DNA of 64,000 nt from Synechococcus sp. 8F6 (GTDB lineage: Bacteria; Cyanobacteriota; Cyanobacteriia; PCC-6307; Cyanobiaceae), in the NCBI RefSeq assembly GCF_002252665.1, contig NZ_NQKZ01000010.1, positions 1-64,000 on the forward strand, in the 5' to 3' direction. The notes beneath the pieces are model-generated. The model did not search any database, had not been told where the DNA came from, and worked only from the letters and a program-made list of their open reading frames with translations. Position numbers and translations under genes: made by a program. Below are positions 7,799 through 49,927 of the stretch, in pieces; positions within the stretch are counted from its first letter, which is position 1; each line of letters opens with the position of its first letter.

Positions 7799-9256
7799 TC
7801 AAACCCGATCATCTGCCGGGTTCACCCCCAGCGCCGCCACCAGCGCTTCGGCCACGGCACCGGCCTCCAGCAGCTGCAGGCCCAGTCCAGCGGCCGCCTT
7901 GGCCAGGCCAGAGCCCTTGGGCACCACCGCCCGGGTGAAGCCCAGCCGTGCCGCCTCCTGCAGCCGCAGCTCCAGCTGTCCCACGGGCCGCAGCTGGCCG
8001 CCCAGACCCAGCTCCCCCACCAGCACCGTGCCGGGCGGCAGGGTGAGGTCGCGGTAGCTGGCCACCACCGCCGCGGCCACGCCGAGATCCGCCGCCGGCT
8101 CCTCCACCTCCAGCCCGCCGGCCACCGCCAGGTAGCAGTCAAAGCGCGACAGGGGCAGGCCCAGGTGCTTCTCCAGCACCGCCAGGATCTGGTGCAGGCG
8201 GTTGGCGGCGATGCCGGTGGCACTGCGGCGCGGGCTGGCGTAGCTGGTGGTGCTCACCAGGGCCTGGAGCTCCACCACCAGGGGGCGAGTGCCCTCGCAG
8301 GCCACGATCGTGGCGGTGCCGGCACTGGGTTCGTCGCTGCCAAGAAACAGCTCGCTGGGGTTGGTCACCTCCGCCAGGCCCCGATCGCGCATCTCAAACA
8401 CCCCCAGCTCATGGGTGGCACCAAAGCGGTTTTTAACGGCCCGCAGCAGCCGGTGGCTGGCGAAGCGGTCCCCCTCGAAGGTGAGCACCGCATCCACCAG
8501 GTGTTCCAGCACCTTGGGGCCCGCCAGGGCACCCTCTTTGGTCACATGGCCCACCAGCAGCAGGGCCGTGTCCTGGCGCTTGGCGATGCGGGCCAGGGCA
8601 GCGGCACATTCCCGCACCTGGGACACCGAACCGGGGGCGCTGCCGAGTTCGGCGTCGTGCAGGGCCTGGATGCTGTCGATGATCGCCACCGCCGGCCGCA
8701 GGGCCTCCAGTTCCTGCAGCACCAGCTCCAGGTCGGTTTCCGAAAGCAGCTGAAAATCGGCCCCAGCTTCGGGTTCGCCGCCTGCATCAGAGTCGCCCGA
8801 GGCCACCTGGGCCAGCCGGCGCCAGCGCAGCTTCACCTGCTGGGCCGATTCCTCCGCACTCACGTAGAGCACGGACGCCCGGCCGGCCATGGCGCGGGCG
8901 CTCTGGAGCAGCAGGGTGCTCTTGCCGATGCCCGGGTCGCCGCCCACCAGCACCAGTGACCCGGGCACCAGCCCGCCGCCCAGCACCCGATCCAGCTCGC
9001 CGTAGCCGCTGCTGAGCCGCTGCAAAGGCCGCTCCCCCACCGCCTGGATCGGCTCGGAGCGCCGCGGCTGACCGGCGGCGGCCGCCAGCCCCGCGGACGA
9101 CTCCGCCAACGGCCGGCGGCGCCGGCTATCGGCAGCCGGCGCCGCCTTCTGCTCCACCAGGGTGTTCCAGCTGCCACAGCTGGCGCACTTGCCAAAAAAC
9201 TGGCGCGCCTGGGCCCCACAGCTGGTGCACACAAAAACGGAGCTGGGCTTGGCCAC
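7799..9256 (-). CDS. radA: DNA repair protein RadA (Sms)
   Basis: A 485-residue helicase of the RecA superfamily acting in recombination branch migration. Order of parts: C4 zinc finger (C10, C13, C24, C27), Walker A GGDPGIGKST, the RadA-specific KNRFG motif in VKNRFGATHELGVFEM, and a C-terminal Lon-protease-like domain. Full length. It is divergent from rpaB across 120 bases. Confidence 0.96.
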   Translation of the reverse strand: MAKPSSVFVCTSCGAQARQFFGKCASCGSWNTLVEQKAAPAADSRRRRPLAESSAGLAAAAGQPRRSEPIQAVGERPLQRLSSGYGELDRVLGGGLVPGSLVLVGGDPGIGKSTLLLQSARAMAGRASVLYVSAEESAQQVKLRWRRLAQVASGDSDAGGEPEAGADFQLLSETDLELVLQELEALRPAVAIIDSIQALHDAELGSAPGSVSQVRECAAALARIAKRQDTALLLVGHVTKEGALAGPKVLEHLVDAVLTFEGDRFASHRLLRAVKNRFGATHELGVFEMRDRGLAEVTNPSELFLGSDEPSAGTATIVACEGTRPLVVELQALVSTTSYASPRRSATGIAANRLHQILAVLEKHLGLPLSRFDCYLAVAGGLEVEEPAADLGVAAAVVASYRDLTLPPGTVLVGELGLGGQLRPVGQLELRLQEAARLGFTRAVVPKGSGLAKAAAGLGLQLLEAGAVAEALVAALGVNPADDRV

Positions 9257-9325
9257 GGGCAGGGCTGCGAGGAAGGGCTGGGAAGAGGGGCTGTATGAAG
9301 AAAGGTGGCGTTGATTGAAAAGTTT

Positions 9326-9351
9326 GCCCCTCTGGCCTTTTCAGTAGGGGC
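9326..9351 (+). promoter_or_regulatory. Short inverted repeat in the rpaB leader
   Basis: GCCCCT at 9326-9331 pairs with AGGGGC at 9346-9351, and inside it CTG pairs with CAG. It lies about 25 bases before the rpaB start in the gap shared with radA. It may be an operator or a leader hairpin; chance cannot be excluded at this GC content. Confidence 0.25.
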
Positions 9352-9376
9352 TATCTGATGTAGCAGCCCGGCTGCA

Positions 9377-10150
9377 GTGATGACGGCTTCCGCCCCCTCC
9401 ACCATCTCCGGAACCCACCACGGCAAAGAGACCATCCTGGTCGTCGATGACGAAGCCAGCATTCGGCGGATTTTGGAAACCCGGCTGTCGATGATCGGCT
9501 ACCAGGTGGTCACCGCCAGCGATGGCGTCGAAGCCCTGGAGCTGTTCAAGACCACCCAGCCCGACCTGGTGGTGCTCGACGTGATGATGCCCAAGCTCGA
9601 TGGCTACGGCGTCTGCCAGGAGCTGCGCAAGGAATCGGATGTGCCGATCGTGATGCTCACGGCCCTGGGCGATGTGGCTGACCGCATCACCGGTTTGGAG
9701 CTCGGCGCCGACGACTACGTGGTGAAGCCCTTCAGCCCCAAGGAGCTGGAAGCCCGCATCCGCTGCGTGCTGCGCCGCGTGGAGAAGGAAGCCGTGGCCG
9801 GCATCCCCAATTCCGGCGTGATTGCCGTAGGCGACCTGCGGATCGACACCAACAAACGCCAGGTGTACCGAGGCGACGAGCGCATTCGGCTCACCGGCAT
9901 GGAGTTCAGCCTGCTGGAGCTGCTGGTGAGCCGCAGTGGCGAACCCTTCAGCCGCGGCGAAATCCTCAAGGACGTCTGGGGCTACACCCCTGAGCGCCAT
10001 GTGGACACCAGGGTCGTGGATGTCCATATCTCCCGGCTGCGCTCCAAACTGGAAGACGATCCGGCCAACCCCGAGCTGATCCTCACGGCTCGCGGCACCG
10101 GCTATCTGTTTCAACGCATCGTTGACGCCGTTGCCTCCGAAGGAACCTGA
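9377..10150 (+). CDS. rpaB: OmpR-family response regulator RpaB (Ycf27)
   Basis: A 257-residue regulator with a receiver domain (phosphoacceptor D68 counted from this start) and a winged-helix output domain. The stretches DDEASIRRILETRLSMIGY and VMMPKLDGYGVCQELRKESD are nearly invariant in RpaB/Ycf27. RpaB binds HLR1 sites and controls high-light genes and photosystem genes; its kinase is NblS (Hik33). A second ATG at 9380 is an equally good start. The end overlaps plsX by 29 bases. Confidence 0.95.
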   Translation: MMTASAPSTISGTHHGKETILVVDDEASIRRILETRLSMIGYQVVTASDGVEALELFKTTQPDLVVLDVMMPKLDGYGVCQELRKESDVPIVMLTALGDVADRITGLELGADDYVVKPFSPKELEARIRCVLRRVEKEAVAGIPNSGVIAVGDLRIDTNKRQVYRGDERIRLTGMEFSLLELLVSRSGEPFSRGEILKDVWGYTPERHVDTRVVDVHISRLRSKLEDDPANPELILTARGTGYLFQRIVDAVASEGT

Positions 10151-11474
10151 CAAGCGCGCCAAGCCCAGCCGGGCCATCCGACGGCTGGTGATCTGGTATC
10201 GCCGCAACGCGGCGGTCACCAGCCTGGTGGACACCGCCGCCACCGCCGCCACCTCTGCCGCCAGCACCGCCGGGAGCATGGCGGGGACGATGGCCGGCAG
10301 CATGGCCGGAGCAGCCGGGGCCGCCACCAGCGCTGCAGGTAGCATAGCCAACACGGTGCTGCAGCCGTTGGTGTTTGATCCGCTGCGGCGCCTGCAGCGG
10401 GGGCTGGGCGGACCCGATGAGGACAAACCGATCAACGACGCCGACCGCCTCTGGGTGGCCGTCGACGGCATGGGAGGCGACTACGCCCCCGGACCGATCC
10501 TGGAAGGCTGCCTGAGGGCGGTGGAGCTGCTGCCCCTGCGGGTGCGGTTCGTGGCCGAAACAGACCGGCTGGACGCCGCCATGGCCGAAATGGGCCTCCA
10601 GGAGCAGCTCGATGCGGCCGTGGCGAGAGGCCTGATCCAGCTAGTGCCGAGCGGCCCCTCGGTGGGCATGGACGAGGAGGCCACGGTGGTGCGCAAAAAG
10701 CGCGACGCCAGCATCAACATGGCCATGGACCTGGTCAAACAGGGCCAGGCCACCGCGGTGTACTCCGCCGGCAACTCCGGCGCCGTGATGGCATCGGCAA
10801 TCTTCCGGCTCAGCCGGCTCAAAAGCATCGATCGCCCGGCCATCGGCGCCCTGTTCCCCACCAAGGACACCGAACAACAGGTGCTGGTGCTGGATGTGGG
10901 CGCCAACATGGATTGCAAGCCCAGTTACCTGCACCAGTGGGCCCTGCTGGGTCACATCTACAGCCGCGATGTGCTGCAGGTGGCCCGCCCCCGCATCGGC
11001 CTGGTGAACATCGGCGAAGAGGAGTGCAAGGGCAACGAGCTCTGCCTGCGCACCTACCCGCTGCTGGCGGAGGAGCAGCGTTTTGACTTCGCCGGCAACT
11101 GCGAAGGCCGCGACATCCTTTCAGGCAACTTCGATGTGGTGGTGTGCGATGGCTTCACCGGCAACGTGCTGCTGAAATTCCTCGAGAGCGTCGGGAGTGT
11201 GCTGCTGGATGTGATCAAGGAGGAGCTGCCCCGGGGCCGCCGCGGCAAGGTGGGCTCAGCCTTTCTGATCAACAACCTGCGCCGCATCAAAAAGCGCCTC
11301 GACCACGCCGAGCACGGCGGCGCTCTGCTCCTGGGCGTTGACGGAGTGTGCGTGATCGGCCACGGCAGCAGCAAGGCCCTCTCGGTGCTGAGCGCCCTGC
11401 GCCTGGCCCACTCCGCCGCCAGCCATGGCGTAATGGCCAACCTGCATGCCCTCTGTACAGCTGTGGTTGACTGA
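10122..11474 (+). CDS. plsX: Phosphate acyltransferase PlsX
   Basis: Catalyses acyl-ACP plus phosphate to acyl-phosphate, the first committed step of phospholipid synthesis. The catalytic part starts near residue 110 at VAVDGMGGDYAPGPILEG and includes GNSGAVMASA and FTGNVLLK. At 450 residues it is about 100 longer than most PlsX proteins: an N-terminal basic segment is followed by an Ala/Gly/Ser/Thr/Met low-complexity stretch (residues 34-80). The start is TTG at 10122, inside rpaB; no ATG occurs before the low-complexity region. It heads plsX-fabH-fabD-plsC. Confidence 0.9.
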   Translation: MTPLPPKEPDKRAKPSRAIRRLVIWYRRNAAVTSLVDTAATAATSAASTAGSMAGTMAGSMAGAAGAATSAAGSIANTVLQPLVFDPLRRLQRGLGGPDEDKPINDADRLWVAVDGMGGDYAPGPILEGCLRAVELLPLRVRFVAETDRLDAAMAEMGLQEQLDAAVARGLIQLVPSGPSVGMDEEATVVRKKRDASINMAMDLVKQGQATAVYSAGNSGAVMASAIFRLSRLKSIDRPAIGALFPTKDTEQQVLVLDVGANMDCKPSYLHQWALLGHIYSRDVLQVARPRIGLVNIGEEECKGNELCLRTYPLLAEEQRFDFAGNCEGRDILSGNFDVVVCDGFTGNVLLKFLESVGSVLLDVIKEELPRGRRGKVGSAFLINNLRRIKKRLDHAEHGGALLLGVDGVCVIGHGSSKALSVLSALRLAHSAASHGVMANLHALCTAVVD

Positions 11475-11495
11475 CCCCACTGTGGGCTGATCCCG

Positions 11496-12530
11496 GTGTC
11501 GCTCGGCGGAGTCAACACATCAGCGGGGCTGGGCGGCATGGCCCTGGTGGGCTCCGGCAGCGCCGTGCCGGCAGCCAGCATCAGCAATCAGCAACTCAGC
11601 GAGCGGGTTGACACCAACGACGACTGGATCCGCACCCGCACCGGCATCGGCGCCCGTCGGGTCGCCGGCCCTGGCGAATCCCTCACCTGCCTAGCCACCC
11701 GTGCCGCCCAGGCCGCCCTCGACCACGCCGGCTGGGCACCGGAGGATCTCGACCTGATCCTGCTGGCCACCTCCAGCCCCGACGATCTATTCGGCACGGC
11801 GCCGCGGGTGCAGGGGGCCCTGGGGGCCACCAACGCCGTGGCCTTTGATCTCACCGCTGCCTGCAGCGGCTTTCTGTTTGCGCTGATCACCGCTGGCCAA
11901 TACCTGGGCAGCGGCGCGATGCGACGGGCCCTGGTGATCGGCGCCGACCAATTGAGCCGCTGGGTCGACTGGGACGACCGCACCACCTGCGTGCTCTTCG
12001 GTGATGGAGCCGCAGCGGTGGCCGTGGAGGCCTGCGCGGCGAGCGACACGGGCCTGCTGGGCTTCCGCATGCGCTCAGACGGCAGCCGCAATGCCTGCCT
12101 CACCCTGGCCCAGGTGGATCGGCATGCCCCCCTGCTCGGCGGTCTCACGGCCCAACAGGGCGGCTTCGCCCCGATCCAGATGAACGGGCAGGAGGTCTAC
12201 AAATTCGCGGTGCGCGAAGTGCCGGCGATCCTCAGCGAGCTGCTGGAGGCCACCGGCACCGCCCCAGAGCAGCTCAACTGGCTGCTGTTGCACCAGGCCA
12301 ACCAGCGCATCCTTGATGCGGTGGCCGACCGCTTCGCCATGCCCCATGCCCAGGTGCTCAGCAACCTGGCCCACTACGGCAACACCTCAGCCGCCACTAT
12401 CCCGCTGATGCTGGATGAGGCGGTCAAAGACGGCCGGGTGCAGCCGGGCCATCTGCTGGCCAGCAGCGGCTTTGGCGCCGGCCTTAGCTGGGGCGCGGCC
12501 CTGCTGCGCTGGGGTGGGCCACAACCCTGA
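11496..12530 (+). CDS. fabH: 3-oxoacyl-ACP synthase III
   Basis: Initiates fatty acid elongation by condensing acetyl-CoA with malonyl-ACP. The catalytic triad is visible: C123 in AACSGF, H266 in HQANQRI and N296 in YGNTSAA. RTGIGARR near residue 48 is also typical. The GTG at 11496 is 21 bases after plsX; an ATG at 11538 (MALVGSGSAVP) is an alternative that removes 14 unconserved residues. Second gene of the lipid operon. Confidence 0.95.
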   Translation: MSLGGVNTSAGLGGMALVGSGSAVPAASISNQQLSERVDTNDDWIRTRTGIGARRVAGPGESLTCLATRAAQAALDHAGWAPEDLDLILLATSSPDDLFGTAPRVQGALGATNAVAFDLTAACSGFLFALITAGQYLGSGAMRRALVIGADQLSRWVDWDDRTTCVLFGDGAAAVAVEACAASDTGLLGFRMRSDGSRNACLTLAQVDRHAPLLGGLTAQQGGFAPIQMNGQEVYKFAVREVPAILSELLEATGTAPEQLNWLLLHQANQRILDAVADRFAMPHAQVLSNLAHYGNTSAATIPLMLDEAVKDGRVQPGHLLASSGFGAGLSWGAALLRWGGPQP

Positions 12531-12589
12531 CAAGGAGCGACGGGTGGCCGAGACCTAATCTCCAGCCGTCTTCCTCGGAGAGCGGCAGC

Positions 12590-13504
12590 ATGGGCATTGC
12601 CTGGGTGTTTCCTGGCCAGGGCTCACAAAAAATCGGCATGGCTGAGGCCGTGCTGGAGCTTCCTGGAGCCCAGCAGCGCTTCGAGCAAGCGTCAGCCCTG
12701 CTGGGCCGCGACCTGCTGGCCATCTGCGCGGGCACGGCAGACGGGTCATCCGAGGGCGAGCCATCCGACCTCAACGACACCCGCAACACCCAGCCGGCCC
12801 TGTTCGTAATCGAAAGCCTGCTGGCTGATGGGCTCAAGGCCCAGGGGCGCACGGCCCAGGTGGTGGCAGGCCACAGCCTCGGCGAGCTGGTGGCTTTGCA
12901 CGTGGCCGGGGTGTTTGACTTCGCCACCGGCCTGGCGCTGATGAAAACCCGCAGCACCTTGATGGCCGCCGCGGGCGGCGGCGCCATGACGGCCGTGATG
13001 GGCTTCGATCGCGGCGAGCTGGAGGCCCTGGTGGCCGCTAACGATGGCGTGGTGATCGCCAACGACAACAGCAGCGCCCAGGTGGTGCTCTCCGGCAGCC
13101 CGGAAGCGGTGGCGGCCGTGAGTGGCCAGCTCCAGTGCAAGCGGGCCATTCCCTTGGCGGTGAGCGGCGCCTTCCATTCCCCCTTCATGGCTGATGCAGC
13201 CGCCGCCTTTGCCGCCGAGCTGGAGGCGGTGCCCTTCGCCGATGCGGCGATCCCGGTGCTCAGCAACACCGATCCCACCCCGGAAACCAGCGGCCCAGCC
13301 CTCAAGGCCCGCCTGATTCACCAGATGACCACCGGCGTGCGCTGGCGCGAAACCATGGAGCAGTTCAGCGCCCTGGGCATCAGCACCGCTGTGGAGATCG
13401 GCCCCGGCGCCGTGCTCAGCGGGCTGATCAAGCGCAGCTGCGACGGCATCACCACCGCCCAGATCGGCGGCGGCGCTGACCTGGGGCTGGGAATCGGCCT
13501 GTGA
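12590..13504 (+). CDS. fabD: Malonyl CoA-ACP transacylase
   Basis: Transfers malonyl from CoA to ACP for fatty acid synthesis. The N-terminus MGIAWVFPGQGSQKIGMAEA, the nucleophile S96 in GHSLGE and H196 in GAFHSPFM are all in place. A GGAGAG sequence lies about seven bases before the ATG. The stop overlaps the plsC start (GTGA). Confidence 0.96.
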   Translation: MGIAWVFPGQGSQKIGMAEAVLELPGAQQRFEQASALLGRDLLAICAGTADGSSEGEPSDLNDTRNTQPALFVIESLLADGLKAQGRTAQVVAGHSLGELVALHVAGVFDFATGLALMKTRSTLMAAAGGGAMTAVMGFDRGELEALVAANDGVVIANDNSSAQVVLSGSPEAVAAVSGQLQCKRAIPLAVSGAFHSPFMADAAAAFAAELEAVPFADAAIPVLSNTDPTPETSGPALKARLIHQMTTGVRWRETMEQFSALGISTAVEIGPGAVLSGLIKRSCDGITTAQIGGGADLGLGIGL

Positions 13505-14253
13505 ATCGCCCTGTCGCTGCCGTTAGGCGGGCCCTGCGCCGCCGCAAACCGGCAGAGCCGCCGGCCCTGATCCGCACACCCCGGCCCAGCCTCACCTACC
13601 GGCTGATCAGCTACCTGCTGGTGTTTCCGGTGTACCGGTTGCTGTTCCGGGGCCGCACCGCTGGCAACGCCAACGTGCCGATGGAAGGCGCCTTGGTGGT
13701 GGTGGCCAACCACGGTTCTCACCTCGATCCACCGCTGCTGGGCCATGCCCTCGGCCGTCCCGTGGCTTTCATGGCCAAGGCTGAGCTGTTTCGGGTGCCG
13801 ATCCTGGGGCCGATCATCCGCGCCTGCGGGGCCTATCCGGTGTCCCGCGGCGCCAGCGACCGCGAGGCGATCCGCACCGCCACCGACCGACTGCTGGAGG
13901 GTTGGGCCACCGGCGTGTTCATCGACGGCAGCCGCCAGAGCAACGGCCGGGTCAACGATCCCCAGGCCGGTGCAGCCCTGCTGGCAGCCCGGGCCGGTGT
14001 GCCCCTGCTGCCGGTGGCGATCATCAACAGCCACCGGGCTCTCGGCCCAGGCCAGAAGGGCGCCCGCCTGGTGCCGATCCACATCCGCATCGGCACGCCG
14101 ATCCCACCACCCGCCTCGCGTCGCCGCCCCGACCTCGACGACGCCACCGCCGCCTGCCAGGCCCAGATCAATGCCCTCCTGGATCAGGGCCTGATCAGCG
14201 GGCGGCAGCTGGCCCCAGGCCTGGAACGCGCTGCGTTGCCGCCCAGCTCTTGA
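13501..14253 (+). CDS. plsC: 1-acyl-sn-glycerol-3-phosphate acyltransferase
   Basis: A 250-residue membrane-associated acyltransferase making phosphatidic acid. The HX4D motif is H71-GSHL-D76 and the acceptor-binding motif FIDGSRQSNGR corresponds to the family's FPEGTRS. The N-terminus is strongly basic. GTG start, four-base overlap with fabD, so coupled. Its last 59 bases overlap the end of a DUF218 gene on the other strand. Confidence 0.92.
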   Translation: MNRPVAAVRRALRRRKPAEPPALIRTPRPSLTYRLISYLLVFPVYRLLFRGRTAGNANVPMEGALVVVANHGSHLDPPLLGHALGRPVAFMAKAELFRVPILGPIIRACGAYPVSRGASDREAIRTATDRLLEGWATGVFIDGSRQSNGRVNDPQAGAALLAARAGVPLLPVAIINSHRALGPGQKGARLVPIHIRIGTPIPPPASRRRPDLDDATAACQAQINALLDQGLISGRQLAPGLERAALPPSS

Positions 14254-14827
14254 GGTCGCGGCCACTCAGCACCCACAGGGCCGCCCGAAGCCCATCGCCC
14301 CAGATCTTGCGGCGCCCCTCAGGCTGACAGCGATCGGCGCAGTCGACGGACTCGGGCGTGAGGTGAATGCCGCGGCTGCCCGCCACAATCCGGCCCACCA
14401 GCAGGGCCCGATCCATGTGGTCGCTGCTGGTCACCAGCAGGGCATGACGGATGCGGGCGCGGCGAAGATCGTCCACCAGAGAGGTGAAGTTGGAGAGGGT
14501 GTCGCGGGCGCGGTAGTCGAGTTGCACCTGGCTGGGCGGCAGCCCCTGGCGTTGCTCAAACAACCAGCGGGCGTACTCAGGATTGCTGCCGCCACTCACC
14601 ACCACCGGCAGGCCCTGACGGGCTGCCAGGGCCGCAGCCCGCTGCTCCCGCGCCACATCGCCGCCGAGCACCAGGATCATCTGGGGTGGCGGCGGGGCCG
14701 GCCTCCACCATCCGCGGGATAGCCAGATCAGGCCTCCCGCCAGCAGCAGCACCACCCCCACCCGGGGCCGGAGGAGCGGCCGACTGGAACGGCGGTGGCG
14801 CCGAGGCCGTTGGGGTGCTCGCCCCAT
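14195..14827 (-). CDS. DUF218 (YdcF/SanA-like) membrane-anchored protein
   Basis: A 210-residue protein beginning MGRAPQRPRRHRR, with one membrane segment at about residues 22-38 (VGVVLLLAGGLIWLS), then the DUF218 fold: MILVLGGDVAREQRAAALA, VVVSGGSNPEY, DYRARDTLSNF and LLVTSSDHMDRALLVG. The domain is linked to envelope functions but its chemistry is poorly known. The start overlaps the tsaB stop by one base (TGATG). The 3' end overlaps plsC on the opposite strand. Confidence 0.85.
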   Translation of the reverse strand: MGRAPQRPRRHRRSSRPLLRPRVGVVLLLAGGLIWLSRGWWRPAPPPPQMILVLGGDVAREQRAAALAARQGLPVVVSGGSNPEYARWLFEQRQGLPPSQVQLDYRARDTLSNFTSLVDDLRRARIRHALLVTSSDHMDRALLVGRIVAGSRGIHLTPESVDCADRCQPEGRRKIWGDGLRAALWVLSGRDLKSWAATQRVPGLGPAAAR

Positions 14828-15438
14828 CAGAGCCCGGCCACCGGCGAGGTGGGATAGAGCGGCAACACGGGCTGCCAGGGGGCCTCCAGACCCTGGACGT
14901 GGGCCCGCACGCTGAGCTCCAGCAACTGCGCCACATCGTCGGGCAGCTGGGCGGCGGATGGCAGCTGCGGGCCCGGCGGCACGGGCGTGCCCGGGGCGAA
15001 CAACCGCGGCGCCTCCAACTCGAGGCAGCCCGCCCCGGCACCGCCGGGCGCTGGGGCATAGAGGCCCGCCACCACACCGCGACGGGGCAGCTCCTGCACC
15101 AGCCAGGTGGGCTCCCTGATCCCCAGGCGCTGGGCCACCAGCAGAAAACTGCCCACCCCATCGAGGGGAAGCTGCAGCTGCTGGGCCAGGGTGCGGGCCA
15201 GCACCACGGTGAGCCTGGTGCCGGTGAAGCCCCCTGGCCCCGTGGCCACCGCCAGACGGGTGAGCTGGGGCCATTGGTGGGCCGGCAACACCTGCTCGAC
15301 GCAGCTGAGCAGCTGGTTGGAAAGGCCGCGACCGAGCGGGAAGGCACGCACCTCGCCGCCGCCCGAGCCGGCATCAAGCCAGCGCACCCCCACGCCGAGC
15401 ACCTCGCTGGAACTGTGCAAAGCCAAGACAGCACCCAT
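14827..15438 (-). CDS. tsaB: tRNA threonylcarbamoyladenosine biosynthesis protein TsaB
   Basis: A 203-residue ASKHA-fold protein that scaffolds TsaD and TsaE for t6A37 modification of ANN-decoding tRNAs. The start MGAVLALHSSSEVLGVGV and the family motif VATGPGGFTGTRLTVVLA are diagnostic. GTG at 15441 is one codon upstream of the ATG. It follows ycf34 by 10 bases and is coupled to the DUF218 gene. Confidence 0.9.
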   Translation of the reverse strand: MGAVLALHSSSEVLGVGVRWLDAGSGGGEVRAFPLGRGLSNQLLSCVEQVLPAHQWPQLTRLAVATGPGGFTGTRLTVVLARTLAQQLQLPLDGVGSFLLVAQRLGIREPTWLVQELPRRGVVAGLYAPAPGGAGAGCLELEAPRLFAPGTPVPPGPQLPSAAQLPDDVAQLLELSVRAHVQGLEAPWQPVLPLYPTSPVAGL

Positions 15439-15448
15439 CACCAGCACC

Positions 15449-15700
15449 TCATCGGGGCAGGGCAGCGCCGGGGCACAACCGCTGCCAGCGGCCTGCATCA
15501 CGCTGGAAGCTGGCGCAGGCCCGCACATCCCATTCCACGCCCACGCCGCCCTGGGGCAAATCCTGCACCTGCACGTGGATCCGCGGCTCCTCGGGCGTGA
15601 AATCGGGCTGGAGGGCAAGGTGGGGCACACCGTGCTGCCGCTCCACCGCGTGGTAGGCCTGACAGCGGTCGACCCAGCGGCAATCCACGCAGATGCACAT
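15449..15700 (-). CDS. ycf34: Ycf34 iron-sulfur protein
   Basis: An 83-residue protein starting MCICVDCRWVDRCQAYHAVE, the Ycf34 signature with closely spaced cysteines (C2, C4, C7, C13). Ycf34 binds an Fe-S cluster and is needed for efficient photosynthetic electron transport in Synechocystis. An upstream in-frame ATG at 15727 would add nine residues and destroy the conserved N-terminus. Its start is only 28 bases from the CCA-enzyme start on the other strand. Confidence 0.92.
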   Translation of the reverse strand: MCICVDCRWVDRCQAYHAVERQHGVPHLALQPDFTPEEPRIHVQVQDLPQGGVGVEWDVRACASFQRDAGRWQRLCPGAALPR

Positions 15701-15728
15701 GCTGCCCAGGCCGAGCCAGGCGCCCATT

Positions 15729-16997
15729 GTGACGGCTGACCGTTCTGCCGGCGAGGTGGCTCACCAGCTGTGGCAGCGCCTGCTGGCCGAGCCCTGGCCG
15801 CTGCCGCTGGCGGCGCTGCCACCAGGCACAGCCCTGGTGGGGGGCGCCATCCGGGATGCCCTGCTGGGCCGCCTCGCGCCCCAACCCGACCTCGACTTCG
15901 TGGTGGAGGGCGATGCCATCACCCTGGCCCGCCAGCTGGCCCGGCACCACGGCGGCAGCGCCGTGGTGCTCGATGCCGACCATGGCATCGCCCGGCTCGT
16001 GGTGAAGGGCTGGAACATCGACCTGGCCCAGCGGGACGGCGCGACCCTGGAGGCCGACCTGGGTCGCCGGGATTACACCGTCAATGCCATGGCCCTGCCC
16101 CTGCCCGCCAGCGCAGGCAGCCCAGCCGGCTTGGTGGATCCCACCGGTGGCCTCGCTCACCTGCAGCGCCACCAACTGGTGGCCGTGAGCGAAGCCAACC
16201 TGCTGGCCGACCCCCTGCGGCTGCTGCGGGGCATCCGCCTGGCCTGCAGCCTCGAGTTCAGCCTGGAGCCCACCAGCCAAGCCTGGATTGAGCGCCATGC
16301 GAGCCAGCTGAGCGCAGTGGCCGGCGAGCGGGTGCTGGCGGAGCTGGAGAAGCTGGCCGAGGCCCCCGCAGGAGAGCGGGGCTTGGTGCTCGCCCTGCGC
16401 TGCGGACTGGTGCAGGGCTGGCACGCCGATGCCGCCGCCGCCCCGGCCTTGAGCGCCCTCAGCCAGGAGCAGGCGCAGCGGCAGGGGCTGCTGGACGCCG
16501 AAGTGGCCTGGGCCCTGCCGCTGGCGCGGCTCAGCGCCCTGCTACCCCCCGAGGCCCTGATGGCACTGCGCAGCAGCCGAAAGCTGCAGCAGCGCTGCCG
16601 GGCCCTGCGGCGCTGGCGTGGGGAACTGGAGGATGCCGGCGGCTGGACTGGGCTGGCGGAGCCCAACCGCGTGGCACTGCATCGGGACCTGGACGGCGAT
16701 CTGCCCGCCCTGCTGTTGCTGCTGACCCAGCCCCCCGGCAACCTGTTGGAACGCTGGCGCAACCCCCACGATCCGCTGCTGCATCCACGCCCGCCGCTGG
16801 ATGGCCGCCAACTCCAACAGCAGTTGGGGATCCCGGCCGGACCCGAGCTGGGGCGGCTGCTGGATCACCTCACCCTGGAGCGGGCCTTCGGCCGACTGGG
16901 AGACGGCCCGAAGGAGCGCTCCACGGCCCTGGCGGCAGCACAACGCTGGTGGATGCAGCAGAAAGGGAGCGACGGGCTGGACAGCCGGCGTGATTAA
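15729..16997 (+). CDS. cca: CCA tRNA nucleotidyltransferase / poly(A) polymerase family
   Basis: Adds or repairs the 3' CCA of tRNAs. Class II motifs are seen in order: GGAIRDALLGR, DLDFVVEGDA, RRDYTVNAMALPL and DPLRLLRGIRLACSLEF. The C-terminal half is Leu/Gln-rich and more variable. I use GTG 15729 (MTADRSAGEV); an ATG at 15693 would run into the ycf34 start region. Some cyanobacteria split CCA- and A-adding activities between two homologues, which cannot be decided here. The local tRNA-Asn lacks an encoded CCA. Confidence 0.88.
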   Translation: MTADRSAGEVAHQLWQRLLAEPWPLPLAALPPGTALVGGAIRDALLGRLAPQPDLDFVVEGDAITLARQLARHHGGSAVVLDADHGIARLVVKGWNIDLAQRDGATLEADLGRRDYTVNAMALPLPASAGSPAGLVDPTGGLAHLQRHQLVAVSEANLLADPLRLLRGIRLACSLEFSLEPTSQAWIERHASQLSAVAGERVLAELEKLAEAPAGERGLVLALRCGLVQGWHADAAAAPALSALSQEQAQRQGLLDAEVAWALPLARLSALLPPEALMALRSSRKLQQRCRALRRWRGELEDAGGWTGLAEPNRVALHRDLDGDLPALLLLLTQPPGNLLERWRNPHDPLLHPRPPLDGRQLQQQLGIPAGPELGRLLDHLTLERAFGRLGDGPKERSTALAAAQRWWMQQKGSDGLDSRRD

Positions 16998-45182: not shown

Positions 45183-46349
45183 ATGCACTGGCTCAGCAAC
45201 GTTCGCCTGCCCCAGGCTCGGCGCTGCAGCCACGGCGCCGAGCAGCGCTGGCGCATTGGCCTCGACGACGACAACCTGATCGCCCTGGTGGAACCCCTGC
45301 CGGATGGCAGCCGGGCCACCGGTGACGACTGGGGCGGCGACTGGCTCAGCCCGGCCGGGGTGGACCTGCAGATCAACGGCGGCCTGGGGCTGGCCTTCCC
45401 GGAACTCACCGCCACCGATCTACCTCAGCTGGAGCAGCTGCTGGAGCTGCTCTGGCGCGATGGCGTCGAAGCGATCTGTCCCACCCTGGTGACCTGCGGC
45501 GTCGCGCCGCTGCGCCAGGCCCTCACCGTGCTGGCCGAAGCACGCGCGCGGCATCGCCCGGGCCGCTGTCAGCTGCTGGGGGCCCATCTGGAAGGCCCCT
45601 TCCTGGAGCCAACGCGGCGCGGCGCCCATCCCGCCCAGCACCTGGCCGCCCCGAGCCTGGCGGCGCTGCTGGAGCGCATCGACGGCTTCGAGGACGACAT
45701 CGATCTGGTGACCCTCGCCCCGGAGCTCGACGGAGCCGAAGCGGTGATCGCCGCCCTGGCCGAGCGAGGCATCGTGGTGAGCCTGGGCCACAGCGCCGCC
45801 AGCGAAACCCAGGCCGAAGAGGCCTTTGCGCGCGGGGTGACGATGCTCACCCACGCCTTCAATGCCATGCCCGGCATGCACCACCGGGCACCGGGGCCGG
45901 TGGCGGCGGCCGCCCTGCGGGGCGACGTGGCGATCGGCCTGATCGCCGATGGGGTGCACGTGACCCCCACCATGGCGGTGCTGCTGCAGCGGCTGGCCCC
46001 GGAGCAGGTGGTGCTGGTGAGCGATGCCCTGGCCCCCTACGGTCTGGGGGAGGGACAGCACCGCTGGGATGAGCGGCTGCTGATCGTGCAGGACGGCAGC
46101 TGCCGGCTGCAGGACGGCACCCTGGCCGGGGTCACCCTGCCGCTGCTGGAGGGGGTGCGGCGTCTGGCGCAGTGGACCGGCGAACCCGGCCGCGCCATCG
46201 CCGCGGCCACCGTGCTGCCGCGCCGGGTGCTGGGGGATGACCGCAGCCTGCCCCAGCTGCTGCTGGGCACGCCCCTGGTCGAGGCCCTGCGCTGGCATGC
46301 GGGGGCTGAGGGTCTGGTGTGGCAGCGGGCCGTGGCCGCCTCCATCTAG
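45183..46349 (+). CDS. nagA: N-acetylglucosamine-6-phosphate deacetylase
   Basis: A 388-residue amidohydrolase-fold enzyme for amino-sugar recycling. Metal and substrate motifs: [65 protein letters not shown] and [11 protein letters not shown], where the last Asp corresponds to the catalytic residue. In cyanobacteria it likely serves peptidoglycan turnover. No nagB is adjacent. Confidence 0.9.
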
Positions 46350-46501: not shown

Positions 46502-47452
46502 ATGGCGTTTCACGACCTGGCTTCCCTGCCACCCGCTGCGGTGCGGGCCGTTGCCCAAACCTGTGAGGCCCTGATCAGCGCCGAGGGGAAAGAGCGCCCA
46601 ACGGAGCGGGAGCGCGAACTGCTGGCGACGCTGTTCCCCTCCTTGTTGGGCCAACCCTGGCCCAAAGATCCAGCCGCCACCATCCCAGTGGGGTTATCGG
46701 GGCTGGTGCTCAGCCGCCGCCAGCGGCAGGAGGTGATGCAACTGCTCACGCTGCTGGCCTTCCTGGAGCCTCGGCTCGATCAGGCCAAGGTGCAGCTCCT
46801 GATGCGCATCGCCGTCGAGCTCCAGGTGGAGCCCGAAACGATGGCCGATCTGGAGGAGGTGTGCCGCGGGCACGTGCTCAAGAGCTTCGGCGACATGTAC
46901 CGCCGCACCTTCCATGCGCTCAACAACGATGGCGTGGTGCAGGGCTATGCCCGCTTCATCCTGCCAATGCTGGGCGTGGGCATCGATCGGGAACACGAAA
47001 GCCGCTACGCCGCCCTGAATGCGGCACCAGCCGGCAGCTTGGGGGCAGGCCTGCACGCTTACTACATTGACAACAACTTCCCTTACCCCGGGAGTCGCAG
47101 GGGCCTTCCTTACGCCTATGTGGCCATCCACGACCTGCACCATGTGATCGGCGGGTACGCCACCGATCCCAACGGCGAACTGCAGGTGCTGGGCTTCACG
47201 ATGGGCTTGTTCCCGGACCACGCCCTGCTGATTGGCCTGCCAGCACTGTTGCAGTTCCAGATGGGCATCGCCGATCCCCTGGCGGGAAGCGTTGCACCAA
47301 AACTGAAAGATCAGCTCGATGCCCCTACCTTCGCGCAGGCCCTGCAGCGCGGCGGCGCTACAACCGGGCCGATCCGCGATTTCCACTGGGACTTCTGGCC
47401 CTGGATCGAACGCCCCTTGGCAGACGTGCGGCGTGAACTCCAGGTGCTCTGA
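46502..47452 (+). CDS. Two-part protein: TerB-like helical domain plus Coq4-like domain
   Basis: A 316-residue protein. Residues 1-125 are helical and charged (AEGKERPTERERELLATLF, LLTLLAFLEPRLDQAKVQLL), resembling TerB-like modules. Residues 130-300 contain HDLHH at 210-214 followed after 11 residues by E226, exactly the HDxxH-x11-E metal motif of COQ4, with surrounding IGGYATDPNGELQVLGF. COQ4 acts on the quinone head group. Cyanobacteria lack ubiquinone, so the substrate is unknown. It precedes chlM by 53 bases on the same strand. The TerB assignment is tentative; the Coq4 motif is strong. Confidence 0.75.
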   Translation: MAFHDLASLPPAAVRAVAQTCEALISAEGKERPTERERELLATLFPSLLGQPWPKDPAATIPVGLSGLVLSRRQRQEVMQLLTLLAFLEPRLDQAKVQLLMRIAVELQVEPETMADLEEVCRGHVLKSFGDMYRRTFHALNNDGVVQGYARFILPMLGVGIDREHESRYAALNAAPAGSLGAGLHAYYIDNNFPYPGSRRGLPYAYVAIHDLHHVIGGYATDPNGELQVLGFTMGLFPDHALLIGLPALLQFQMGIADPLAGSVAPKLKDQLDAPTFAQALQRGGATTGPIRDFHWDFWPWIERPLADVRRELQVL

Positions 47453-47505
47453 GAAGGGGTAGCTCCCTAGGATCCGGCCCATCCAGAGGCCCATTGCCCC
47501 GCTCG

Positions 47506-48210
47506 ATGCATATCGCAGCCGAAACAGCAGCCGAAAAAGCCGAGGTGAAGGGCTATTTCGAAACCACCGGTTTCGACCGCTGGAACCGCATCTACAGCGA
47601 GTCCGAGGACGTCAACCGGGTGCAGCGCAACATCCGCATCGGCCACCAGAAAACGGTGGACAACGTGCTGGCCTGGCTGCAGGAGCAGGGCAACCTGGGC
47701 GAGCGCAGCTTCTGCGACGCCGGCTGTGGCGTGGGCAGCCTGACCCTGCCCCTGGCCCAGCTGGGGGCAGGATCGATCGCCGCCTCCGACCTCTCGGCCG
47801 CCATGGTGCAGGAAGCCGAGCGTCGCGGCGTCCAAGCCGGCATCGCCCCGGGCCGCATCCACTTCCTGGCCTCCGATCTGGAGAGCCTCAGCGGCCGCTA
47901 CGACACGGTGATCTGCCTGGATGTGTTCATCCACTACCCGCAGGCCCCTGCAGAGGAGATGGTGCGCCATCTGGCTGGCATGGCGGAGCAGCACCTGATC
48001 GTGAGCTTTGCCCCCTACACGCCGCTGCTGGCGCTGCTCAAGGGCATCGGCCAGCTGTTCCCGGGCCCCAGCAAAACCACCCGGGCCTACACCCTGCGCG
48101 AGGCGGGCATCGTGGCCGCCGCCGCCGAGGCCGGCTTCCGGCCCGTGCGCCGCAGCCTCAACAAGGCGCCCTTCTATTTCTCCCGCCTGATCGCCTTCGA
48201 ACGGGCCTGA
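47506..48210 (+). CDS. chlM: Magnesium protoporphyrin IX methyltransferase
   Basis: Methylates Mg-protoporphyrin IX in chlorophyll synthesis. EVKGYFETTGFDRWNRIYSE and NRVQRNIRIGHQKTVDNVL are diagnostic, followed by the SAM site CDAGCGVGSLTLPLAQLGA. ATG 47506 (MHIAAETAAEKAEV) gives 234 residues; a TTG at 47494 would add four. It meets the AlkB homologue gene directly, with no gap, tail to tail. Confidence 0.95.
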   Translation: MHIAAETAAEKAEVKGYFETTGFDRWNRIYSESEDVNRVQRNIRIGHQKTVDNVLAWLQEQGNLGERSFCDAGCGVGSLTLPLAQLGAGSIAASDLSAAMVQEAERRGVQAGIAPGRIHFLASDLESLSGRYDTVICLDVFIHYPQAPAEEMVRHLAGMAEQHLIVSFAPYTPLLALLKGIGQLFPGPSKTTRAYTLREAGIVAAAAEAGFRPVRRSLNKAPFYFSRLIAFERA

Positions 48211-48900
48211 TCAGACCTGCGCGCCTGAGCGCACCACCCGAAAGGTGAGGTTGAGGCGCTCCTGTCGGACGCGCAGGCGCTTGGGCAGGGCGTGCTGCCA
48301 CCAAAGCTGGGTGGGGGGGTCCATCAACAGCAGATCGCCGTTGTGCAACGCGATGTTGAACGGCGCGCAGGGGTCGCCTCGCCTGATGCCCTCCTCGCCA
48401 TACCCGTCGGGCAGCGGGGCACCAGGCGGCCGGCGGGGGCTGGGCCGGGGCCGCAGGCGGAAGTCGCGGGGGGCCCCGAAGCTGAGCGAGGCGATCGGCG
48501 CAGCGGGATCGAGCTCGGGTTCGTCGTCGGCATGCCAGCCCATGGCATCGCGGCCGTCGCGGTAGCGGTTGAGCAGCAGGGAGTTGAAGCGCCAGCCGGT
48601 GAGCTCCTGCAGGGCCTGGCGCAGCTCGGCGGCGGCCGGCGACCAAGACTCAATCGCGTTGGCCAGGCCGCTGTAGCGGTAGCCGCAGCCCGGATCAGCC
48701 ATCCAGCAGGTGAGCCGCGGCAGCAGGTGACGGCGGCCATAGAGCGTGATCGCCTCCTGCTTCCACGGCACCTCGGCCTGCAGCGCCGCCAGGAGCTCGG
48801 CCGCCCGGGCCGGCGGCAGCCAGGCCGGCCAGTGGCGCAGGTGCAGACCAGGGCGTTCAACAGTCTGTTCAACAAGCCCCGAATGCAAAAACTCAACCAT
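48211..48900 (-). CDS. AlkB-like 2-oxoglutarate/Fe(II) dioxygenase
   Basis: A 229-residue dioxygenase of the DNA/RNA dealkylation family. TLYGRRHLLPRLTCW, NSLLLNRYRDGRDAMGWHAD (iron ligands H and D), LLLMDPPTQLWWQHALPK (second iron His) and RLNLTFR (2-oxoglutarate Arg) are all present. Likely repairs methylated bases. The start at 48900 overlaps the end of the pseudouridine-synthase-like gene by eight bases. Confidence 0.88.
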   Translation of the reverse strand: MVEFLHSGLVEQTVERPGLHLRHWPAWLPPARAAELLAALQAEVPWKQEAITLYGRRHLLPRLTCWMADPGCGYRYSGLANAIESWSPAAAELRQALQELTGWRFNSLLLNRYRDGRDAMGWHADDEPELDPAAPIASLSFGAPRDFRLRPRPSPRRPPGAPLPDGYGEEGIRRGDPCAPFNIALHNGDLLLMDPPTQLWWQHALPKRLRVRQERLNLTFRVVRSGAQV

Positions 48901-49927
48901 CGGCGGCACCGCGCAGGGCCTCGGGCAATGGCGCCTCCAACTCGAGCAGGCCGCCATCGGGGCAGGCCAACTGCAGCCGATGGGCATGCAGGTGGTAGCC
49001 CCCATCCCCCGGCAGGGCCCCCGCCTGGGCGCCACCGCCAGGGCCATAGAGCGGATCGCCCAGCAGCGGGGCCCCGGCGGCGGCGGTGTGGATGCGGATC
49101 TGGTGGGGGCGGCCGGTGGCGATCGTGACCTCCACCGACCAGGCCCGCTCGCGCCGCTCCAGCAGGCGCAGCACGCTCAAGGCCGGCAGTGCGGCGGGAT
49201 CCGCAGGGGCGGCAGGGGCGGCAGGGGCGGCAGGGGCGGCAGCCCAGATGGTGCCCAGGCTCCCATGGGCACAGCGACCGATCGGGGTGGTGAGGCTGAG
49301 CAGCTCGCCGGGCTCCAGCGCCAGCAGAGGCGAGCCGGGGGCGGGTGGCTGCAGCAGGGCCCGGTAGGTCTTGCGGCAGGGGCTCACCAATGTGGTCACA
49401 GTTGTGGAGCTTTTTTGAAGGCGCTGTTGTTGTGCCGTGCTCTCCCGCAGCTGGGCGCTAAGCCAGGCGCGGGTGGCGCTGCGGCGGGCGCAGATCAGCA
49501 GCCCCGAGGTGAAGCGTCCCAGGCGGTGCACGGGCCGAGCGTCAGGCCAGCGGGCCTGCAGCTGGGCCAGCAGGGTGTGCTCCAGAAAGCCACCGGCCGG
49601 CAGCACCGGCAGGCCACTGGGTTTGTCGAACACCAGCAGGTCGCCGTCGTCGAACAAGGGGCCGGGCAACACCGGCACGGCGGCTTCCTGCCAGGGGGGC
49701 CGATGCCAGATCAGCCCATCCCCGGCTGCGAGGGCGACATCGGCCTGGAGCTGTTGGTTGTTCCTGCAGATCTCGCCGGCGGCGAGCCGTTGTCGCCACA
49801 CCGCCGCACTGGAATGGGGGTAGCGGGCTGCGTAAAACGCGCTCAACAACTGGCCCCCGTCGCGGGGAGTCACGCGATCGCGGTAGGCGTGGCCCCGGTT
49901 GAACGCCGCTGGCAGCTCAATCCACAA
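48893..49927 (-). CDS. RluA-family pseudouridine synthase homologue lacking the usual catalytic Asp
   Basis: A 344-residue protein. An N-terminal S4-like segment (AVWRQRLAAGEICRNNQQL) precedes the synthase fold: LLVFDKPSGLPVLPAGGF and HRLGRFTSGLLICAR. Active RluA enzymes read HRLD in this place; here it is HRLG (Gly codon 49517-49519). ATGRPHQIRIHTAAAGAPLLGDPLYG, the other conserved block, is intact. An Ala/Pro insertion comes from a 9-bp repeat. It may be inactive, may use another residue, or may only bind RNA. Confidence 0.82.
   Translation of the reverse strand: MWIELPAAFNRGHAYRDRVTPRDGGQLLSAFYAARYPHSSAAVWRQRLAAGEICRNNQQLQADVALAAGDGLIWHRPPWQEAAVPVLPGPLFDDGDLLVFDKPSGLPVLPAGGFLEHTLLAQLQARWPDARPVHRLGRFTSGLLICARRSATRAWLSAQLRESTAQQQRLQKSSTTVTTLVSPCRKTYRALLQPPAPGSPLLALEPGELLSLTTPIGRCAHGSLGTIWAAAPAAPAAPAAPADPAALPALSVLRLLERRERAWSVEVTIATGRPHQIRIHTAAAGAPLLGDPLYGPGGGAQAGALPGDGGYHLHAHRLQLACPDGGLLELEAPLPEALRGAADG
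49204..49242 (+). repeat. 9-bp tandem repeat inside the pseudouridine-synthase-like gene
   Basis: Four exact copies plus three bases of the unit CAGGGGCGG. The unit is a multiple of three, so copy-number change keeps the frame and changes the number of Ala-Ala-Pro units in the product. It may vary between strains. Confidence 0.95.

Follow-up and report, generated by a model that had tools for sequence, protein, structure and literature searches.

COQ4 has been studied as a ubiquinone protein, and its chemistry was assigned only recently. To our knowledge, cyanobacteria contain no coenzyme Q (CoQ); they make plastoquinone from prenylated 4-hydroxybenzoate. A reconstructed ancestral (tetrapod) COQ4 was reported to catalyze Zn2+-dependent decarboxylation of the C1 carboxylate of a CoQ precursor, double mutants of its metal motif gave no product, and COQ4 is described as belonging to the COQ metabolon (PMC7615680). 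In the COQ4 homologue Alr8543 from Nostoc (PDB: 6E12), oleic acid is reported to be bound and Mg2+ to sit at the motif (PMC9774615). A figure legend also notes Coq4 in a prochlorosin gene cluster of marine Synechococcus (PMC10783134), and the likeness of that system to the gene described here is a Coq4-named protein in picocyanobacteria.

The window analyzed here is a 64,000-nucleotide stretch of Synechococcus sp. 8F6 (contig NZ_NQKZ01000010.1). It carries a gene whose product (focal protein P0001), judged by profile comparison, is a real fusion of a TerB module with a divergent COQ4 module. The protein scores under both Pfam thresholds and is therefore not counted as a member of PF05019 or PF05099. 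The gene is flanked on the same strand by a nagA-like gene upstream and by chlM downstream, the latter supported by TIGR02021 (212.3 bits, cut-off 158.9) and PF07109. The distance of 53 bases to chlM given in the earlier note holds for the chlM ATG, and becomes 41 bases with the TTG. Further along, AlkB-like (48211-49047) and pseudouridine-synthase-like (48893-49927) ORFs overlap on the same strand by 155 bases (window 48893-49047) when their first start codons are used, so at least one of these starts probably lies further in.

Table 1 Features of the TerB-COQ4 locus, in window positions.
Feature	Position	Strand	Evidence
nagA-like gene (N-acetylglucosamine-6-phosphate deacetylase)	45183..46349	+	TIGR00221 210.1 bits, under cut-off 225.65
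TerB-COQ4 fusion gene (316 aa, focal protein P0001)	46502..47452, stop included	+	ORF, dN/dS
TerB-like helical module, residues about 1-125	46502..46876	+	hhalign, model match 2h5n_C
COQ4-like module, residues about 168-316	47003..47449	+	hhalign, PDB profile matches
HDLHH-x11-E metal site (predicted), H210 D211 H214 E226	47129..47179	+	invariant in alignments A1 and A2
chlM, Mg-protoporphyrin IX methyltransferase	47494..48210, start 47494 TTG or 47506 ATG	+	

Six close orthologues, 67–86% identical to the focal protein, were found in Cyanobium usitatum, Cyanobium sp. FGCU6, two Vulcanococcus MAGs and two unclassified cyanobacterial MAGs; two C. usitatum loci (L003 and L057) show the same identities and appear to be from the same genome. 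More distant full-length relatives (about 310–370 residues, about 19–33% identity) were also detected, both within this family and in a few cyanobacterial families besides. Two alignments were prepared, A1 with the seven focal orthologues (the window gene and the six others) and A2 with 19 fused proteins. A search of 373 cyanobacterial genomes with the A2 profile gave three classes of match, covering both halves, positions ~4–122 only, or positions ~170–313 only. These separate N-half-only and C-half-only matches in other cyanobacterial proteins argue that the protein consists of two modules. Both halves were matched in at least 18 of the 373 genomes (matches from position ≤40 to ≥280, fragments excluded, up to six candidates scored per genome), and some genomes held two or three fused copies. 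TerB-COQ4 fusions are found in a minority of cyanobacteria. No relatives of the fused protein were found in viral contigs or, by tblastn, in plasmids and phages, and a full-text literature search, judged by titles and abstract openings, found no report of a TerB-COQ4 fusion.

The metal motif was examined by script, which located H210, D211, H214 and E226 in the exact HDxxH-x11-E arrangement proposed from the sequence alone, with one HDxxH only in the protein. The motif is invariant in all seven aligned rows of the window gene and its orthologues. With exact spacing, it is present in 37/37 distinct fused ORFs including the focal one, in 33 of the 37 COQ4-only ORFs (some of which are fragments) and in none of 18 TerB-only ORFs, counts that describe conservation within the family rather than an unbiased survey, as the loci were retrieved because they resemble the focal protein or the profile of its family. 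Profile–profile alignment placed the motif of the focal orthologues in the same register as that of standalone COQ4. A chance origin of the motif is ruled out by its invariance among orthologues, its presence in every fused ORF and this shared register. Between fused subfamilies, the two middle letters of HDxxH vary (HDCCH, HDWIH, HDVHH, HDMTH and others). Comparison of the window gene with its six orthologues gave dN/dS values of 0.166–0.257 (0.156–0.257 over all 21 focal-orthologue pairs), with the C-terminal half lower than the N-terminal half in 6/6 comparisons with the window gene. On these values, the focal gene is under purifying selection and looks functional.

At E 1, neither Pfam nor NCBIfam gave a match to the focal protein alone, and as a single sequence it returned chance-level PDB matches plus 6e12 at E 0.51. 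Matches to matrilysin (best E 0.18, single sequence) were rejected as chance similarity around a histidine-glutamate stretch. Stronger matches were obtained with profiles. The standalone COQ4 set comprised 13 proteins, six of which were individually scanned with Pfam and all six passed; hhalign comparison with this set gave a probability of 99.3 for A2 and of 98.9 for A1, the metal ligands being in register in both. Against the PDB, the A2 profile matched 3msq (E 9e-11) and 6e12 (Alr8543, E 3e-9), which the standalone COQ4 profile matched far more strongly. Among the short COQ4-only relatives, six of the seven scanned exceeded the Pfam Coq4 cut-off of 22.9 bits (L044, at 19 bits, was under it), one of the six, from the window's own genome (L002), reaching 65.5 bits with PF05019. 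All nine distant fused relatives scanned scored 10.8–21.7 bits, under 22.9, and no PF05019 match was found for the focal protein or its orthologues L054–L056; the focal protein is too divergent for this Pfam family.

The matched chains of 6E12 and 3msq (titled "putative ubiquinone biosynthesis protein") contain a COQ4-type module like that of the focal protein, but are COQ4-only, with 225 and 224 residues, whereas the focal protein adds TerB in front. Alr8543 is reported to carry the same HDxxH-x11-E motif (PMC9774615), and the metal motif and spacing reported for eukaryotic COQ4 (PF05019), a Zn-dependent C1 decarboxylase, are also the same (PMC9774615, PMC7615680). A further likeness to PF05019 lies in the GSLG and C-terminal PL...R segments common to the focal protein and the standalone cyanobacterial COQ4 set. 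An AlphaFold model built with seven close sequences had a mean pLDDT of 54.6 over the full length, with values mostly below 50 in the COQ4 half, and the mean was 41.1 when that half was modeled alone. Foldseek with this model gave no match at E 0.001 or better, and COQ4 chains were absent from the structure-match listings, an absence that, with so poor a model of this half, does not speak against a COQ4 fold. As modeling of this half failed with the seven close sequences, the COQ4 fold of residues about 168–316 is predicted from sequence profiles only. The earlier note's reading of the second half as COQ4-like is borne out at this level, with homology detected over the COQ4 core to accepted members of the family.

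Standalone COQ4 genes have neighborhoods of their own. One in the window's genome (L098:5004-5681) lies between two SulP-like transporter ORFs, with no quinone gene recognized nearby (both by eye). Within a single cyanobacterial family (f28), four genomes have a standalone COQ4 of about 173–185 aa together with a CRR42-like ORF (PF11347, scanned in L143 only) and a peroxiredoxin-like ORF named by eye (L143, L145, L148 and L149), possibly a conserved partner set.

For the N-terminal module, 16 loci with N-half-only matches were re-examined, and 16/16 matched the N half alone. Four of these proteins were scanned, and all gave Pfam TerB (PF05099) at 37.9–40.5 bits (cut-off 24.4) followed by Mo-nitro_C. 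An alignment of 12 such TerB/Mo-nitro_C proteins (A3, including the four scanned) matched 2ou3 (COG3793, "tellurite resistance protein") in the PDB with E 2.6e-8 and, at E 0.15, 2jxu, a structure of TerB. Comparison of A2 with A3 by hhalign gave a probability of 98.1 and E 1e-13 over residues 1–125, while the seven close orthologues alone gave a probability of only 9.7 (E 0.0033), with nearly the same register. Residues 4–120 of the AlphaFold model matched 2h5n_C with Z 9.7, an rmsd of 3.4 and 106 aligned residues (next row 3.9), a Z that helical folds may reach without kinship according to the tool's warning. The entry 2h5n is titled as a protein of unknown function and was not returned by the A3 TerB profile search; we take it to be TerB-like. 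Because of the low probability for the close orthologues, it is the wider family and the model that carry the TerB assignment for the focal clade.

On this basis homology to the TerB domain is supported for residues about 1–125, in agreement with the separate helical TerB-like module that had been proposed for the first 125 residues. TerB (PF05099/COG3793; 2ou3, 2jxu) and the TerB-Mo-nitro_C proteins have the same N-terminal helical module (probability 98.1 for the wider family), but in the focal protein it is joined to COQ4 rather than Mo-nitro_C, and it falls under the Pfam TerB gathering score of 24.4. The focal protein had no TerB match, and among 12 other fused proteins scanned, TerB was listed for L005 only, at 19.5 bits. 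TerB ahead of Mo-nitro_C (PF06967; four scanned) recurs in cyanobacteria (L150 and L152–L166), and from these architectures TerB looks like a reused front module in this phylum.

A tree of 66 COQ4 domains, consisting of 37 fused rows and 29 of the 37 COQ4-only ORFs, placed the fused rows on one side of a branch with support 92/75, the first value meaning that the branch was found in 92% of 200 bootstrap trees. The COQ4-only ORFs left out were four without the motif (including L116), L019 and L020, and L040 and L041 (length). The standalone row nearest the fused side was L044, which is long-branched, and the tool cautions on long branches. Such a topology would fit a single fusion event and later diversification. 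At least two fused copies are broken by internal stops (L099, G235:C1:2039027-2039782; L100, G189:C1:1551050-1551571), and occupy a site where relatives such as L113 keep an intact gene.

Proximity to Nif11-type precursors, as in prochlorosin clusters, was considered and judged incidental: a home-made Nif11 profile matched one of the 33 neighborhoods L088–L120 (L091) and none in L169. In genome G416 a Nif11 cluster lies next to a fused gene (C1, about 1654.8–1663.8 kb; gene L168:6823-7893, precursor ORFs 8238-15828), and in G329 another fused gene is about 4.5 kb away from one. The G416 cluster includes transposase-like ORFs (by eye), and a related fused gene in G410 has the same transporter neighbors on one side with no Nif11 ORF in L169. 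An ORF of 118 aa upstream of L044 appeared Nif11-like by eye, and was rejected since neither a Pfam match nor a Nif11 match in that genome was obtained.

The position of the gene before chlM had suggested a tetrapyrrole as the ring on which it acts, and in the window the focal gene is on the same strand as chlM, 41–53 bases upstream. The order nagA-focal gene-chlM is shared by three of the seven orthologues (the window's, L052, and L057, which comes from the L003 genome). As far as their contigs reach, the remaining four lie away from chlM, with no chlM within 5 kb of L053, L055 or L056, and none on the 3,981-base contig of L054. By eye, a helicase-like ORF adjoins L053; L055 and L056 have a different neighborhood in common; and L054 follows DUF1778-like and acetyltransferase-like ORFs. 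The chlM loci of the family were then collected from the best-scoring 30 of 55 genomes with a match (61 searched), one locus being the window's own. Of the 29 others, 27 have a same-strand nagA upstream of chlM (25 of them at a distance of up to 190 bases), and 0/29 contain the focal gene within about 1.5 kb each side, a comparison in which genomes without any orthologue cannot show linkage. By these gene orders nagA-chlM is an old pair, and the focal gene would have entered, or survived there, in a few genomes; its presence looks like an insertion. With four orthologues away from chlM as far as their contigs reach and 29 other chlM loci lacking the gene in the fetched stretches, conserved linkage to chlM was rejected, and the hint of a tetrapyrrole role is not supported. 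The adjacency is most likely a coincidence of position.

Another neighborhood bears on the same question. Among 31 fused-gene neighborhoods (L088–L120 minus the COQ4-only L098 and L101), hemC was present on the same strand in the fetched stretch in eight, spanning three motif subfamilies (HDCCH, HDCVH, HDWLH) and including the two broken copies L099 and L100; the other 23 had no hemC in the fetched stretch, and L113 has a gene on the opposite strand between hemC and the fused gene. The eight loci, all from close marine, Synechococcus-like relatives (L097, L099, L100 and L112–L116), have fused genes or broken copies near ppa-, L,D-transpeptidase- and hemC-like genes, names assigned by eye. For comparison, 30 hemC loci of the family were examined (the 30 best among 52 genomes that gave a match, about 1.5 kb each side). 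Of these, 25 had ppa near hemC with no fused gene between them, four had neither, and one contained a broken fused copy (L172, genome G189). The recurrence near hemC is a weak hint to a tetrapyrrole, the gene again lying in an old neighborhood. It slightly raises our estimate, which we nevertheless keep very low: action of the fused protein on a tetrapyrrole seems highly improbable.

The earlier note's broader proposal, that the protein works on another ring, stands in its plastoquinone part as a possibility. UbiD was present in the window's genome and in 34/36 genomes searched; the two genomes without a match are 85% complete. The plastoquinone C1 decarboxylase is therefore not missing in this organism, and a role on a plastoquinone precursor is possible but not needed to fill a gap. 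One option is a backup for UbiD, with the fused protein serving as an alternative C1 decarboxylase in the plastoquinone (prenyl-4-hydroxybenzoate) pathway. In cyanobacteria that pathway runs through prenylated 4-hydroxybenzoate, which would suit such an activity. With Zn2+, the reconstructed animal COQ4 is reported to remove the C1 carboxylate from the ring of the CoQ precursor (PMC7615680). Against this, UbiD occurs in nearly every genome searched while full-length fused proteins were found in at least 18/373, and no quinone gene was recognized by eye beside the printed fused loci. Since UbiD is the usual decarboxylase and the fusion is sporadic, the fused COQ4 would be at most accessory, and we regard the backup role as improbable. 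Compared with eukaryotic COQ4, the focal protein has a host with UbiD, and its decarboxylase activity is putative.

With all four ligands kept, and in view of the published properties of COQ4 and Alr8543, the protein is best read as having a divalent-metal, lipid-binding role. We propose that H210, D211, H214 and E226 would coordinate one or two divalent cations next to a hydrophobic groove, in the manner of Alr8543 (6E12), in a divergent but intact COQ4-type module joined to an N-terminal TerB-type all-helical module. Its site of action may be the membrane, and its substrate a long-chain or prenylated lipid whose head group is acidic. The most specific proposal is acid-lipid (de)carboxylation, plausibly metal-assisted as reported for the reconstructed animal COQ4, with the TerB module docking or sensing. 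Its role would be accessory and sporadically kept; it would be neither a chlorophyll-synthesis step nor the sole plastoquinone C1 decarboxylase available. Among the fused-family neighborhoods examined, there was no shared operon partner that names the substrate. Taken as a whole, this explanation strikes us as evenly poised between right and wrong.

A rival explanation is a non-enzymatic lipid or quinone carrier or scaffold, in which the COQ4 module binds an isoprenoid lipid, the metal is structural, and TerB docks to a membrane complex. The reported membership of COQ4 in the COQ metabolon (PMC7615680) and the lipid and Mg2+ reported in the Nostoc homologue 6E12 (PMC9774615) are consistent with this, and the sporadic and sometimes broken fused copies fit an accessory role. 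However, retention of the four ligands in 37/37 fused ORFs, with the middle letters of HDxxH free to change, suits a catalytic or at least functional metal site, and we consider such a carrier or scaffold rather unlikely.

A bolder reading concerns the family as a whole. The fusions may constitute an undescribed TerB-COQ4 enzyme family, which arose by one fusion and then split into subfamilies acting on different prenyl-lipids or lipid acids outside ubiquinone synthesis, with TerB coupling activity to metal or membrane state; we offer this as a doubtful but possible scenario. The result corrects a tempting context clue, the neighboring chlM. A diverse COQ4-like family in organisms without ubiquinone, in which the metal site is fully kept, would mean that the COQ4 module does something more general, and the two-domain protein offers a testable partner for it in TerB.
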